Source: an uncultured bacterium
GTDB lineage: Bacteria; Cyanobacteriota; Vampirovibrionia; Gastranaerophilales; Gastranaerophilaceae
Direction: 5' to 3'
NCBI GenBank assembly: GCA_949293185.1
Contig: CASFCQ010000032.1
Location: forward strand, 1-50,272
Length of the DNA stretch: 50,272 nt
The translations under genes and the position numbers were made by a program. Below, piece by piece: positions 7,523 through 48,361 of the stretch; the stretch's first letter is position 1; each line of letters begins with the position of its first letter. The notes under the pieces are model-generated. The model saw only the letters and a program-made list of their open reading frames with translations. It was not told the DNA's origin and ran no database searches.

Positions 7523-10024
7523 ATGAAAATCGGACAAATTGAAACAAAACATCAATACGGTCTGAAGCGAAAAGAAATCCGTTACCAGTATGCGGAGCAA
7601 GGTTCGCTCCACTCGGGCAAACAAAATACCTTACAGAATAAAAGTATATTATCAAAACCCTTGCAAGAAGGCGTAAATGCGCAAATATCTTTCAAGGGTT
7701 TTAATTTTAATGCGATAAAATCCAAAATAGCGCTTAAACCCATAATAAAAACAGTTCCCCAAAACCTTCAGGACAAGGTTTTTGACTCGCTAAAAAAAAT
7801 TAATAAACAGCAGCTTAAATACTATACAGACATAAAAAACGACTATGTCAAATACATACTTGAACATGAGGATTTTCAAAAACAAAACCATTTGAGCGCT
7901 GAAATGCTCGAAAAAATAAAGCAGGGTCAGCTGATTTATCTACCCAAACAACCGCTTGTGTCAAAATTCTTTACACAGCTTGTTTCTCCATTGACAGCAG
8001 TATACAAATGGGGGGAAAAATTAATATTACCCAAAGACTCAAAAATACTTAAAAGACGCTCGGAAAGAGAAAAGGTTCTTAAAAATTTCAGAGCGCTGGA
8101 AGGTCTTTTAAAATCCCATGAAATATGGGAAAACGGATACAGAAAAAAAAGCGGGCATACAAAATTTAACGATACAAGCAAATTTTTAATCCCTGACGAT
8201 ATCCTGGAAGGCAAAATAAACAGAAGAAGAAACAAAGTTGTAGACCCTAACAAGGGCAAATACTCTTCTAACTCACTAATGATAGGCAACAGGCTAATCT
8301 CAGGTATTGTATACTCATACTTTTTAGGTACTGACGCATACAACACGACAATGAGATACAGCAACAATCATACAGAAGCCGCAAACCAGAGAAAATCCCG
8401 TGTTGCGCAGGAATTTTCCAGAATCGGTATGAACATGTACATCCAGAACCTGCTGTTCGGAACATTTGAAACAGCAGTTAACCGCAGCCTGCTTACCGCT
8501 ATGTTTGTATCAGGTTCAACCGTAGCATTTTCTGAAATTTTAGGCAGAAAACTTGTCGGAAAGCCAATTATGCCGTCAGACAAAGACACTCTGGACAGGC
8601 TCGAACAGGAAATGTACGAGAAAAAAGGTATACTTCCTTCAATAGGCAGGCTTTTGACAACTGTTAAGAAAAAAGAACCGGCTGCCGCAATCAACAACAA
8701 ACCGCAGGTTTCTTTTAATAAAACAAAAGCTAATGAAAAACTGTTCAAAGCTTTTGCCCAAAGCCGACCTGATGCACAAACTCCGGCTTATCAACCCCTA
8801 AAACATAACACGCAGCCCTCTTTTAAGGGATACTACCGTGTAGAAAAGCTGATAGACAAAAACAAACTTTCTCAAATAATAAAAATTCTTGAACAAACTG
8901 ATGAACAAACAGCGGCAACGATTAAAAAAGCTATTTTAAAAGCAGCTCAAAAATCCGATTTTTATAAAACAAACAACATCGCCGCACCGAAAGTATTTAA
9001 TGAGATAATCAGCAGCAATGCATATTCAAAAGTTCCTGTAGGCTCAAAAGATACTATATGGGGCAAATGGACAAAAAGTATACTTGTTCCGGTTAATTTT
9101 GTTAAAAACCTGACCAAAAGGACTCACATATTCCTGCAAAACTGCTACAACATAATACGCGGCAGGAAAAACACTTACTGGCAAGACAGGCTGAATGAAG
9201 CTATGAGCAGCGCAGACAGCAAAAAGGATTTTGAAAACTACCTTGCTCAAAGAATGAAACTTGAGGTTTGGAAAACATCACCTTTGCCGGAAGCAGACAA
9301 AAAACTTGAAATATTCAAAGAGTTTATTTCATCAAAATCAAAAGAACGAGAAGATATAGAAGGTGCAAAAAACATACTTCTCTGGCTGGATAAGCAAATC
9401 AAGCGCGAAAATATAAAAATTCAACCGGACGGCACTCTTAACGAGGCAGATGTCAAAAAGGTTCAAAACATTTTAAAAGAATCCGTAATGCGTGCTGACG
9501 GAGAAAAACAGCTGGAATATGACGGCAATACTCTTGCCCAGACCAATATAAATCTTTCCAGGGCAATAACGACACTATTCCTTGTTACTGACGCATACAA
9601 CCTTACTATGCAATACAGCAACGACAACAGAAAAGATGCCAACAAGAGCGCCAAAAACAGAGCAGCACAAGAAATTTCCAGAATCAGCGTATCGGCTTAC
9701 ATTATGGCGTTTGTTCACAATCTGCTTTCAAAACTCTGCAACTCAAGTCTTGCAGGAGCATTTACACTAACAGCGCTTACATCAACAATTAACGATTCTA
9801 TATCAAGACAGGTTGTCGGAGTTCCTCTGACGGCTAAAAACCAGGAAGAACTGGAAGAAATCGACAGAAAAAATCAAAAATCAAAAAGCCCTATAAAAAA
9901 AGCTCTGGCATATTCTATAGGTAAAAAATCAGCTGTTTCTCAGAAAAAAGCTGTTGATAACACGGCAAAAACAGATATAGATTACTTTTCAAACGACTTT
10001 TTTATAACACCGGAAATTAATTAA
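7523..10024 (+). CDS. Large FKG-motif protein with an internal duplication
   Basis: An 833-residue basic protein that I do not recognise. Two similar halves are visible. Residues about 267-300 (GTDAYNTTMRYSNNH..RVAQEFSRI) match residues about 688-722 (VTDAYNLTMQYSNDN..RAAQEISRI). Each is followed by a moderately hydrophobic stretch and a conserved KLVGKPI / QVVGVPL segment. Each half is preceded by an FKG motif: ISFKGF at 55-60 and PSFKGYY at about 432. This suggests tandem duplication of an ancestral unit, motif included. Hydrophobic segments near 305-345 and 725-770 could insert into a membrane. The downstream rsmH gene starts 31 bp later and may be co-transcribed. Confidence 0.75.
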   Translation: MKIGQIETKHQYGLKRKEIRYQYAEQGSLHSGKQNTLQNKSILSKPLQEGVNAQISFKGFNFNAIKSKIALKPIIKTVPQNLQDKVFDSLKKINKQQLKYYTDIKNDYVKYILEHEDFQKQNHLSAEMLEKIKQGQLIYLPKQPLVSKFFTQLVSPLTAVYKWGEKLILPKDSKILKRRSEREKVLKNFRALEGLLKSHEIWENGYRKKSGHTKFNDTSKFLIPDDILEGKINRRRNKVVDPNKGKYSSNSLMIGNRLISGIVYSYFLGTDAYNTTMRYSNNHTEAANQRKSRVAQEFSRIGMNMYIQNLLFGTFETAVNRSLLTAMFVSGSTVAFSEILGRKLVGKPIMPSDKDTLDRLEQEMYEKKGILPSIGRLLTTVKKKEPAAAINNKPQVSFNKTKANEKLFKAFAQSRPDAQTPAYQPLKHNTQPSFKGYYRVEKLIDKNKLSQIIKILEQTDEQTAATIKKAILKAAQKSDFYKTNNIAAPKVFNEIISSNAYSKVPVGSKDTIWGKWTKSILVPVNFVKNLTKRTHIFLQNCYNIIRGRKNTYWQDRLNEAMSSADSKKDFENYLAQRMKLEVWKTSPLPEADKKLEIFKEFISSKSKEREDIEGAKNILLWLDKQIKRENIKIQPDGTLNEADVKKVQNILKESVMRADGEKQLEYDGNTLAQTNINLSRAITTLFLVTDAYNLTMQYSNDNRKDANKSAKNRAAQEISRISVSAYIMAFVHNLLSKLCNSSLAGAFTLTALTSTINDSISRQVVGVPLTAKNQEELEEIDRKNQKSKSPIKKALAYSIGKKSAVSQKKAVDNTAKTDIDYFSNDFFITPEIN

Positions 10025-29076: not shown

Positions 29077-30123
29077 TTAAAAATATTTCTCTACTGCAAA
29101 CTTAAATTGTTCTACAAACAGTTTTTTAAAATAATCCAGACTATTGTTTTCATAAAAAATGATTACAGCTTTCTTATAATCACTTTCATTTATACTTCTG
29201 TATGACAACGGACAATAGCCATTTGCAAACAAAATTGCATTGGCTAAAATTCTTCCCGTTCTCTTGTTACCATCTTCAAACGGTTGAATATAAGAAATCA
29301 TTAAAACCGCAATTAATGCCTTTTCGATAATATTTTCAGTATCATTTATTGTATTAATTAAGTTGTCAACCGCTTCTTTAATTTGTAATTGGTTTGATAA
29401 AGGCTTGTAATTTGTTCCTACAATACCAACCGGAGATTTTCTCAAGCCTTTGTCTACACCTAAATCACTTATTAACAGGGCATGTAATTCTTCTAACTTT
29501 TTTAATGTAATAATTTTGAAATAATTCTTATTTTCGAATATAAATTCCAAAGCCTTTTTATGATTTAAAATCATAATGGATTCTTCTTTTCTGTGACCTT
29601 TAGCTTCTATATTTTCTTTAATTAACATCTCAGTATCGAGTAAAGAATAAGTGTTTCCTTCAATTTGTGAAGATTTCCAACTTAATTCTATGAGCAATCT
29701 TTCATATTCTTTTTTTAATATCGTAAAAGAAAGGGAATTTACTTTATTTGTGTAAATCTTATTTATATTTTCTAATTTTTTAATTTCTTCAACAGAAAAT
29801 AAATTCTTTAAATTACCATATACATTAAAGTTAAATTGAGGATATTTTATTTCTCTATTATCAACATCTGTTTTAAAATAATTATCAACATCATATTTCA
29901 TTAAAAGTTCATTCGATTCAGCAGGCAAATATTTTATGCTTCTAGCAGAACCTATTTTATTAATATAATTATTTTTTAACAGTACATCTAAATCTCTTAT
30001 AATAGTATTTTTAGACGCTTTATCATCGACAGTTTCAACATAGATTTCAAGTTCTAATCTGCTCGAACCATTGTGTTTGTTGATATAATCTAATATTAAA
30101 CTTTGCCTTTTGTTTAACTCCAT
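29077..30123 (-). CDS. HTH-Fic protein with substituted catalytic His
   Basis: A 348-residue protein. Residues 1-70 form a winged-HTH-like domain (RQSLILDYINKHNGSSRLELE..IIRDLDVLLKNNYI). Residues 100-340 are the Fic fold. Fic proteins transfer AMP or similar groups to target hydroxyls. The inhibitory motif (S/T)xxxE(G/N) is present (S151-SQI-E155-G156), N-terminal to the core as in class II. The core motif reads I-Q-P-F-E-D-G-N-K-R-T-G-R (279-291), so the usual catalytic His is Gln280 and the second Gly of GNGR is Lys. Activity may be lost or altered. Its operator and promoter overlap (30147-30179), which suggests autoregulation by the HTH. Confidence 0.82.
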   Translation of the reverse strand: MELNKRQSLILDYINKHNGSSRLELEIYVETVDDKASKNTIIRDLDVLLKNNYINKIGSARSIKYLPAESNELLMKYDVDNYFKTDVDNREIKYPQFNFNVYGNLKNLFSVEEIKKLENINKIYTNKVNSLSFTILKKEYERLLIELSWKSSQIEGNTYSLLDTEMLIKENIEAKGHRKEESIMILNHKKALEFIFENKNYFKIITLKKLEELHALLISDLGVDKGLRKSPVGIVGTNYKPLSNQLQIKEAVDNLINTINDTENIIEKALIAVLMISYIQPFEDGNKRTGRILANAILFANGYCPLSYRSINESDYKKAVIIFYENNSLDYFKKLFVEQFKFAVEKYF

Positions 30124-44821: not shown

Positions 44822-45415
44822 TTAACTTTTTATAGACTCGGCATATTTATAAAACGTACTTTTAGCGATGTTACACATTGACATTACATCCTTTACTTTA
44901 ATCAATCCTTGTGAATAAAGTTCATACGCTCTTAGAAAATCTTTCGGAATTTCAGCTTTAGGACGACCAAACTTAACCCCTCTTTGTTTTGCGGATGCAA
45001 TACCTTCTGATTGTCTGGTTTTAATATTTAATCTCTCACGTTCTGCTACGTATCCAAGTAATTTAAGAATAATATCTGTAATTAATCTGCCTGTTAATCC
45101 ATTTTGATTATCACGTGTATTGAGTACAGGCATGTCAAGCACTTGTATATCAACTCCCATATTAATAATGGCTTCCCATTCATTACATATCTGTTTATAA
45201 TTTCTGCCAAATCTATCTATTGAATGTACTATAACAAGGTCTCCGGCTCTTAATTTAGCCTTCATCTGTTGATACTTTTCACGACCCACAAAGTTTTTAC
45301 CCGAAGCCTTTTCAATTATAATTTCATCAACTTTTAAACCTTTAAGGCTGTCTATTTGTCTATCTTCTTTTTGTTCTCTTGTTGAAACTCTTATATATGC
45401 AAATGTTTTACCCAT
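44822..45415 (-). CDS. Serine recombinase (resolvase/invertase family)
   Basis: A roughly 197-residue small serine recombinase. The catalytic Ser is in AYIRVSTREQ near the N-terminus. Conserved Arg residues follow in KLRAGDLVIVHSIDRFGRN, then the E-helix region and a C-terminal helix-turn-helix (LIKVKDVMSMCNIAKSTFYKY). It probably resolves dimers or inverts DNA inside the element. The frame is open to a TTG at 45421, but the ATG at 45415 gives the usual 'MGKTFAYIRVST' start. It is the last gene of a leftward phage-like cassette. Confidence 0.85.
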   Translation of the reverse strand: MGKTFAYIRVSTREQKEDRQIDSLKGLKVDEIIIEKASGKNFVGREKYQQMKAKLRAGDLVIVHSIDRFGRNYKQICNEWEAIINMGVDIQVLDMPVLNTRDNQNGLTGRLITDIILKLLGYVAERERLNIKTRQSEGIASAKQRGVKFGRPKAEIPKDFLRAYELYSQGLIKVKDVMSMCNIAKSTFYKYAESIKS

Positions 45416-45433
45416 AATCAACTTACCTTCTTT

Positions 45434-46756: not shown

Positions 46757-47038
46757 ATGACAGAAGTATATAAAGTATCAGAAGAACAAAAAGAACGTAT
46801 TAGAAACCTTGTAAAGGATTTTTTAAAAGAACAGAATATATCAGTATATAAACTTGCTAGAATGCTTAATGAAAGATATGGGCGTTCGGGTTCTGTATCT
46901 AATATCTTAAATAAACTATCCAGAGCAACTTTTAAAATATCTGAATTAATGGACATTGCGGAATTATTCGACTATGAAATAAAATTTGTTCCTAAAACCT
47001 CGATAGAGGGGCATGAAGATAACAAACCAAAGTTTTAA
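46757..47038 (+). CDS. Cro/CI-type HTH regulator
   Basis: A 93-residue protein with a helix-turn-helix of the XRE/Cro-CI type (about 25-65: QNISVYKLARMLNERYGRSGSVSNILN..ATFKISELMDIAELFDYEI). It has a short acidic tail. A ribosome binding site (gaggtg) and a TATAAT (46733-46738) lie upstream. It is divergent from the leftward resolvase cassette, the usual arrangement of a phage-like switch regulator that represses the opposite operon. Confidence 0.78.
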   Translation: MTEVYKVSEEQKERIRNLVKDFLKEQNISVYKLARMLNERYGRSGSVSNILNKLSRATFKISELMDIAELFDYEIKFVPKTSIEGHEDNKPKF

Positions 47039-47125
47039 ATATGAAAGATACGCTGGGCTAGCCTTTTACAGGAGTTTTGCACCATATTGATTATAAAGTG
47101 TCTTTTCCAAAGAACTTGACTTTCC

Positions 47126-47174
47126 GGCAAGAATATGGCAAAATAATGGCAAGAGTGCGGCAAATTTATGGCAA
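47126..47174 (+). repeat. Five GGCA(A) repeats with an 11-bp period
   Basis: GGCA occurs at 47126, 47137, 47148, 47159 and 47170, always exactly 11 bp apart, with related 6-bp spacers (gaatat, aataat, gagtgc, atttat after ggcaa). The last copy overlaps the ATG (47168) of the Fic gene. The spacing puts every copy on one face of the helix, as in a cooperative operator array. Confidence 0.7.
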
Positions 47175-48250
47175 AGTTTAATCCAAAATACTCAATCACT
47201 AATTCCATTGCAAATAACCTTCTTGAAATTGAACGAGTTAAAGAAGGGATTAAGACTCTGCCGATTAACCCTAAACTTTTAAGTTCATTAAGAGAAACCG
47301 CTAAGGTTGCAACTATTCATTATTCGACCCAGATTGAAGGAAACAGGCTTTCCAGAGAAGAAGTTTTTGAGGTCATTAAGAAAAATAAGGTTATTTCTAA
47401 TACAGGAAGAATACGTGATGAGAAGGAAATCAGAGGCTACTATGCAGCCCTTGATTACATTGAAAAACTTGCTAAGAATAAGTCGCCTATAACAGAGGAT
47501 AATATTAAACTTATCCATGCCTATGTAACTGGAAGTGGAAGCACAAAAGTAAAACCTAATGAATATAGAGAAGGGCAGAATGTAATTACGGACTCATTAA
47601 CCGGTAATATTGTCTATATGCCTCCTGAAGCAAATGACGTACCGGAATTAATGAAAGAATTTGTTAAATGGATTAATAATACTAATGATATTCCGATACC
47701 GATAAAAGCAGGAATTATTCATTATCAGTTTGTAACAATACACCCTTACTTTGACGGTAATGGAAGAACAGCAAGACTTTTAACCACTCTTGCTCTGCAT
47801 AAAGAAGGGTATGACCTTAAATGCATTTACTCTCTGGAAGAATACTATGCAAAGGATTTGCTGGGATATTATGACGCAATAACTATCGGTGATTCACACA
47901 ATTACTATATGGGACGTGCTGAAGCGGATATTACAAAGTGGGTAGAATACTTTGTTGAAGGAATGGGAGTTGCATTTAAATCAGTCTATAAAAAGGCTAA
48001 GGACAATGAAAGTTCTAAGGATGAAGTTAAAGTATTAAGAGAACTTGACTCTAAACAAAGGCAAATACTCAACCTGTTTGAAACACAAAAGTATGTTACG
48101 GCAAAAGAAATTGCAGACTTCTTTAAATTTGCACCACGTACAGCAAGACTGCTTGCTTCCGAGTGGGTAGAAGCAGGGTTTATTATTGCCCAAGGAGAAG
48201 GAAGAAAACGAAAATACAGATTGAATGATAAATACGAGGCTATTTTGTAA
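47168..48250 (+). CDS. Fic-family protein with C-terminal winged HTH
   Basis: A 360-residue class II Fic protein. The inhibitory motif is S53-TQI-E57-G58. The core motif is intact: H192-P-Y-F-D-G-N-G-R-T-A-R (192-203), with the catalytic His and anion-binding loop. It should transfer AMP (or another nucleotide-derived group) to target hydroxyls once inhibition is relieved. The C-terminal part (about 290-360) is a winged HTH (RQILNLFETQKYVTAKEIADFF...RTARLLASEWVEAGFI) that may bind DNA. Its start codon is embedded in the 11-bp-period repeat array, which suggests autoregulation. It contrasts with the His-to-Gln Fic protein at 29,077. Confidence 0.88.
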   Translation: MAKFNPKYSITNSIANNLLEIERVKEGIKTLPINPKLLSSLRETAKVATIHYSTQIEGNRLSREEVFEVIKKNKVISNTGRIRDEKEIRGYYAALDYIEKLAKNKSPITEDNIKLIHAYVTGSGSTKVKPNEYREGQNVITDSLTGNIVYMPPEANDVPELMKEFVKWINNTNDIPIPIKAGIIHYQFVTIHPYFDGNGRTARLLTTLALHKEGYDLKCIYSLEEYYAKDLLGYYDAITIGDSHNYYMGRAEADITKWVEYFVEGMGVAFKSVYKKAKDNESSKDEVKVLRELDSKQRQILNLFETQKYVTAKEIADFFKFAPRTARLLASEWVEAGFIIAQGEGRKRKYRLNDKYEAIL

Positions 48251-48280
48251 GTCTGTCAAAATGTAAAATATATACCTGTC

Positions 48281-48361
48281 ATTTTGTAAAATATAGGAGT
48301 GCAATTTTGTAAAATACAGGTCTTAATTTATCCATTTTATGTCTTAATTTATCCATTTTAT
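48281..48361. repeat. Tandem short repeats between convergent genes
   Basis: Two 17-bp copies of attttgtaaaata(t/c)agg lie at 48281-48297 and 48304-48320. They are followed by two perfect tandem 21-bp copies (48320-48340 and 48341-48361), each containing tcttaatttatccatttt. The second 21-bp copy overlaps the 3' end of the methyltransferase-like gene, so the first is a duplicate of the last codons and stop of that gene. ATTTTGTAA also occurs at the Fic stop (48242-48250). Confidence 0.7.

Follow-up and report, generated by a model that had tools for sequence, protein, structure and literature searches.

In the 50,272-nucleotide stretch of DNA analysed here (the window: contig CASFCQ010000032.1 of assembly GCA_949293185.1, from an uncultured bacterium of the Gastranaerophilaceae), five short tandem units run through the promoter of a fic gene and into its start codon. 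Judged by sequence comparison, this array is very probably an autorepression operator, bound cooperatively by the winged helix of the Fic protein encoded behind it. The word GGCA starts at 47126, 47137, 47148, 47159 and 47170, every interval being 11 bp, exactly one helical turn; all five words read GGCAA, and the fifth lies within ATGGCAAAG, the start of fic (ATG at 47168). The initial annotation had reported five GGCA copies at four equal intervals of 11 bp with the last in the fic start, and the sequence bears this out.

The 11-bp array is not a product of chance. Tandem Repeats Finder picks it up independently (period 11, 4.5 copies; also period 22), and a search of the window for four GGCA words at 11-bp steps, with at most three mismatches, returned the array as the sole site, in three overlapping matches; the same pattern in 100 shuffles of the window gave a mean of 0.07 matches and a largest count of 1. 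In the whole 2.2-Mb genome the exact three-copy pattern occurs at two places, both directly before a fic gene, and the 28-bp array pattern with at most three mismatches finds those two places only. The second array, on contig C19, likewise has five units and precedes a fic gene whose protein is 97% identical.

The phase of the array is conserved among relatives. Orthologues came from three sources, genomes of relatives, 80 GTDB genome loci and a single viral contig, and gave a comparative set of 85 distinct upstream regions from about ten phyla, at 45-100% identity: 26 form a close group from Gastranaerophilales-like genomes (70-100% identity) and 59 are distant (45-60% identity), the latter, as labelled in the database and in many cases metagenome bins, including Acidobacteria, Proteobacteria, Chlamydiae, Bdellovibrionales, Verrucomicrobia, Elusimicrobia, Planctomycetes and others. 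In 78 of the 85 upstream regions, and in 1 of 1700 shuffled ones, there are two or more units in 11-bp phase, counts that depend on score thresholds chosen in the analysis and on motifs trained on the same sequences. Self-match at lag 11 exceeds that of shuffles in the close group (z 21.4) and in the distant one (z 22.7), with harmonics at 22 and 33.

All 26 close relatives carry units at -42, -31, -20, -9 and +2 from the ATG, or offset from these positions by an integral number of units or by a short insertion at the N-terminus. The unit of the window's clade is of the GGCAA type (ATGGCAAnA), that of the 59 distant loci is TTATCGGCA or TTAACGGCA, and in one clade GGAA replaces GGCA, the unit being TTTATTGGAAG (L020, L021, L121, L132 and kin). 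Distant layouts include three to four direct units, and another with two direct and three inverted units (-58>, -47>, -24<, -13<, -2<), where the start codon again falls within the last unit. The comparison of upstream regions that the initial annotation had proposed as a check gave an 11-bp phase that is kept in relatives down to about 50% identity and a unit sequence that drifts, so that its refuting condition, spacing that is not conserved among homologues, did not apply; its remark that the array differs from palindromic operators stands for the window's clade and fails for many relatives, which have added inverted units. In a Fic subfamily of about 30% identity (L023, L026, L152-L155), TATAAT is immediately preceded by three copies of an unrelated unit, TAATCGTCTAA, again spaced by exactly 11 bp (lag-11 z 3.3-5.9 at each locus). 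A constant spacing with a changed word is the pattern that would arise if the 11-bp step were dictated by the geometry of the bound protein and the word by its recognition helix. On a Paenibacillus larvae plasmid, two GCGGC words 11 bp apart precede the TATAAT of a fic gene, with a z of 1.4 that is not significant alone. Apart from the L023 subfamily, no 11-bp array was found before other Fic paralogues or before the second Fic-family gene of the window (29077-30123, reverse strand, 348 aa). That second gene product has an N-terminal region resembling a helix-turn-helix (HTH).

The array overlies a sigma-70-type promoter, TTGACT-17-CAAAAT, at 47116-47144. Its parts are as follows.

47116..47121, forward strand: -35 hexamer TTGACT (TTGACT or TTGACA with a 17-bp spacer in 25 of the 26 close relatives)
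47124..47134, forward strand: operator unit 1, ccGGCAAgaat, within the promoter spacer
47135..47145, forward strand: operator unit 2, atGGCAAAATA, holding the -10 hexamer at its end
47139..47144, forward strand: -10 hexamer CAAAAT, preceded by TG, inside unit 2
47146..47156, forward strand: operator unit 3, atGGCAAgagt, around the transcription start expected from the -10 hexamer
47157..47167, forward strand: operator unit 4, gcGGCAAattt, spanning with unit 3 the expected start and the leader
47168..47178, forward strand: operator unit 5, ATGGCAAagtt, beginning exactly at the ATG and overlapping the start codon

The same register, with the -10 hexamer inside a unit, is present at 74 of the 85 loci; a -35 hexamer matching at least four of six positions accompanies it at 49 of those 74, and the spacer is 17 bp in 46 of the 49. 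No inverted unit (TGCC) lies before fic in the window, where there are five direct units at 11 bp instead.

The gene behind the array encodes a predicted adenosine monophosphate (AMP) transferase with a predicted winged-helix domain at its C-terminus.

47168..48250, forward strand: fic, class II Fic AMP-transferase with C-terminal winged helix, 360 aa (Pfam, PADLOC and AlphaFold model)
47324..47344, forward strand: inhibitory-helix motif S53-T-Q-I-E57-G58-N59 (S53, T54, E57, G58 and N59 invariant in 60 relatives)
47741..47776, forward strand: catalytic motif H192-PYFDGNGRTA-R203 (core residues invariant across 60 relatives)
48050..48223, forward strand: C-terminal winged helix-turn-helix, residues 295-352 (predicted structure)
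48134..48172, forward strand: predicted recognition helix, residues 323-335, with R324 and R327 (AlphaFold model)

The protein matches the Pfam Fic family (E 7.7e-20) and the PADLOC SoFic model (E 2.2e-59, 199.6 bits, residues 21-358), a model for which no curated cut-off is given. Its AlphaFold model (pLDDT, the predicted local distance difference test, of 86) aligns with SoFic 3eqx over residues 1-353 (310 aligned, Z 24.3, root-mean-square deviation 7.9); the structure search covered mainly residues 4-285 and so by itself says little on the winged helix. The elements of that domain in the model are helices at 295-306, 312-319 and 323-335 and strands at 339-342 and 349-352, and residues 280-347 match the transcriptional regulator 2d1h (E 2e-4). 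The class II inhibitory motif (S/T)xxxE(G/N), N-terminal to the Fic core, is present as S53-TQI-E57-G58; the Fic motif HxFx(D/E)GNGRxxR is present with Tyr at the Phe position, and H192, P193, Y194, D196, G197, N198, G199, R200 and R203 are invariant in the 60 relatives. R324 is conserved in at least 90% of relatives. The match to the family model and the SoFic-like fold, including the C-terminal winged helix, place the protein in the SoFic family; AMP-transfer is predicted from the class II motifs and the family, and the biological role, judged by family, is likely SoFic-type anti-phage defence (PMC12249575, PMC11514479).

Comparison of the window with 94-97% identical relatives in other genomic contexts, by blastn, gave for the majority of loci a shared block from 47113 to 48249/48250, which delimits one further feature.

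47113..48250, forward strand: transferable conserved cassette, promoter/operator and fic alone

With only promoter and fic in the cassette, and other genes flanking it from locus to locus, fic itself would be expected to encode the cognate binder. A small downstream antitoxin like EcAS1 had no conserved candidate among the 89 small open reading frames found 3' of fic at 80 loci, among which mutual resemblance was limited to four, all of one close group; this search would miss very divergent short proteins. Among all 360 Fic columns, residue 327 of the predicted recognition helix best explains base -2 of the unit: where it is R, that base is a purine in 81%, and where it is not, the base is T in 81%; 71 of 73 classifiable loci fit the rule. 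The sole relative without R324 (L119) also lacks the normal GG core. Other unit positions have no clear single winged-helix column, and several of the top covariation columns fall elsewhere in the protein, a pattern that shared ancestry would produce; as evidence for Fic as the binder, the covariation is suggestive only. The initial annotation had named the Fic winged HTH, or a multimer, as the likely binder; the Fic winged HTH is favoured by the location of the array in the fic promoter, by its travel with fic alone and by the covariation with the recognition helix.

The association also holds when arrays are sought without reference to fic. A two-unit pattern was searched blind in the genomes of 47 relatives and the matches were then compared with all fic places. 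By our count, 28 of the 38 exact matches lie immediately 5' of an orthologous fic; of the other ten, three are at decayed fic copies (L142, L144), four in two arrays that lack a recognisable fic (L141, L146) and three elsewhere, and a one-mismatch match in L143 is again at a decayed fic. Clear operator units are retained at the decayed copies (L142 6177-6260, L143 8435-8830 with its array at 8783, L144 1400-1790), and in L142 and L143 an intact fic lies a few kb away. The matches in G468, in or at other genes, look like chance. By this distribution, an array is almost as good a predictor of fic as fic is of an array.

We infer from these results that Fic is the binder, that its binding represses, and that a trigger releases the promoter. 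Fic subunits would bind successive 11-bp units through the C-terminal winged helix, nearly on one face of the DNA, and neighbouring subunits would pack together, making binding cooperative. Fic on the array would keep RNA polymerase off, because unit 1 fills the spacer, unit 2 holds the -10 hexamer and units 3-5 extend across the expected transcription start as far as the start codon; fic would in this way repress its own transcription, and steeply. Such self-repression could keep a potentially harmful AMP-transferase low and self-limiting, until a trigger, for example phage infection or an altered state of the AMP-transferase, lifts it. CccR offers a direct precedent for self-repression by a Fic protein (PMC9755527), and CarH one for winged-helix oligomers on tandem 11-bp repeats at a promoter (PMC9304148).

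Several observations weigh against autorepression by Fic. Arrays of the fic type stand without a recognisable fic alongside in two distant genomes (G471:C39 and G473:C822; L141 2540-2596, L146 683-701); these are either relics or further targets of the regulator, and they leave room for another binder. Seven of the 85 relatives have no two adjacent clear units: theirs keep to the 11-bp grid with larger gaps or are of the GGAA type. Some Fic proteins of the winged HTH type have no such array. In a tree computed on Fic minus its winged helix, the base -2 trait changes at least four times and yields one supported independent pair; the independent-pairs sign test of the covariation is concordant and, with few switches, not significant. 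CbFic2 of Coxiella burnetii, a class II Fic protein with a winged HTH, binds random DNA (PMC10628234).

Another protein might instead bind the array and control fic, either a host regulator or a protein of a mobile element such as the DUF6471 protein encoded directly upstream (46757-47038), by family a plausible small DNA-binding protein, whose region has a match in one relative too (L063, starting at window position 46768); the arrays that occur without fic would fit such a binder. We regard it as rather unlikely, given that most relatives with the same array have different upstream genes, the conserved block beginning at the -35 box, that the array accompanies fic across distant phyla with a unit that covaries with the Fic recognition helix, and that matches to it elsewhere in the genomes are few. 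It is quite unlikely that Fic binds the array not as a repressor and rather as an activator, or uses it as a docking site that stimulates AMP-transfer: DNA binding does stimulate AMP-transfer by CbFic2 more than 20-fold (PMC10628234), but the units cover the spacer, the -10 hexamer, the start region and the start codon and not an upstream activator position, the Fic protein CccR represses when bound near the -35 and -10 boxes (PMC9755527), and stimulation of the enzyme by DNA could coexist with repression.

Control at the RNA level, by an element in the leader of the fic mRNA, would suit the last units, which lie in the leader and across the start codon, yet units 1 and 2 are upstream of the expected transcription start, the inverted units of relatives would be different RNA words, and there is no Rfam match in the window; we consider this very improbable. 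A neutral, functionless tandem duplication of an 11-bp word is the reading to which we give practically no credence, although the units of one locus resemble each other and, just past its start codon, the sister fic copy shows a tandem expansion of its own, of 12 bp: 78 of 85 loci keep the phase though the sequence is replaced, the promoter register is fixed and variants with inverted units exist, and a neutral repeat is ruled out by an 11-bp phase that outlives the unit sequence. A recombination or attachment site was likewise rejected, as the conserved block runs from the -35 box to the stop codon and the array keeps a fixed promoter register; there is no sign of a crossover site at the array, though no search was aimed at one. 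Two degenerate array patterns had no match in viral contigs, and protein searches returned two viral-contig loci, nine phage records, all below 60% identity, and two plasmid records; on these grounds a viral origin was set aside.

The surroundings of fic vary. The window has a resolvase gene at 44822-45421 on the reverse strand and a large serine recombinase gene from 49132 to its end, and these flanking genes point to fic as cargo carried by an integrative element; in the relative L063, similarity to the window takes in the recombinase region and, upstream of fic, that of DUF6471. Directly 3' of the fic stop, 48262-48361 holds 2.4 copies of a 23-bp repeat containing TGTAAAAT and two perfect copies of a 21-bp one, which seem to resemble the multiple terminal repeats of IS21-like insertion sequence elements, with no transposase adjacent. 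The sister fic (G000 C19; L007 5059-6165) carries, directly after its operator, a 12-bp coding tandem repeat, AAATTTAATCCA, that gives FNPK three times and is absent from the window copy. The fic of L015 lies, judged by eye, downstream of an apparent tRNA 3' end; L127 and L137 have an in-frame TAA within the fic frame.

Winged-helix Fic proteins, the SoFic anti-phage enzymes among them, are common, but what the winged helix binds has been established for very few (CccR). The arrays give likely target sites from sequence alone for dozens of Fic proteins, and they predict an 11-bp helical-phase rule and specificity residues 324 and 327. They also suggest how a host may tolerate a mobile single-gene AMP-transferase, which would bring along its own repressor and operator. 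More tentatively, and as a possibility we would not yet favour, a broad branch of winged-helix Fic enzymes of the SoFic type may have reached many phyla via horizontal transfer as self-contained single-gene toxin-plus-repressor modules, in which a cooperative Fic filament on the 11-bp-phased operator couples transcriptional shut-off to the control of AMP-transfer with no separate antitoxin. We found no report in the open-access literature that combines Fic autorepression with an 11-bp tandem operator; as far as that literature shows, the combination and its breadth across phyla are new.

ParR/parC and the MraZ boxes are known cases of tandem direct repeats of about 10-11 bp that overlap a promoter and to which the regulated gene's own product binds; their DNA-binding folds and functions are unrelated to those of Fic. 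CarH/CarA are winged-helix repressors whose oligomers occupy three or four direct repeats of 11 bp, arranged in tandem along one face of the DNA, in operators that overlap the promoter and vary in design among species (PMC9304148). The window array shares the promoter overlap and has at least three such repeats; CarH joins a MerR-type winged helix to a B12 light-sensing domain, whereas the gene linked to the array encodes a Fic AMP-transferase and no MerR-type or cobalamin-dependent binder, the unit is different, and some fic relatives mix direct and inverted units, unlike CarH. SoFic-type proteins (Shewanella SO_4266; defence genes in PMC12249575, PMC11514479) share domain order, fold and class II inhibitory motif with the window Fic; DNA binding by SoFic is stated as not demonstrated (PMC10628234), and we found no description of an operator of SoFic-type proteins in the open-access literature. 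The downstream EcAS1-like antitoxin is described for EcSofic only, and the search of small downstream frames gave no conserved counterpart at loci of the window type. CbFic2 is, like the window Fic, a class II Fic with a winged HTH; it was assayed on random DNA, and an own-promoter operator is not reported in PMC10628234. CccR of Yersinia pseudotuberculosis, a Fic protein with a C-terminal HTH, represses its own promoter via that HTH and needs dimerisation to do so (PMC9755527). It has the same domain layout as the window Fic and own-promoter sites near the -35 and -10 boxes, and the array too lies in the promoter of its own gene. The CccR footprint is a pair of inverted repeats of 10 bp, AGATAATCAT, with a distance of 26 bp between them (PMC9755527), an arrangement of inverted half sites that is absent from the window; the window family has in their place three to five short tandem units at 11 bp with the unrelated core GGCA.
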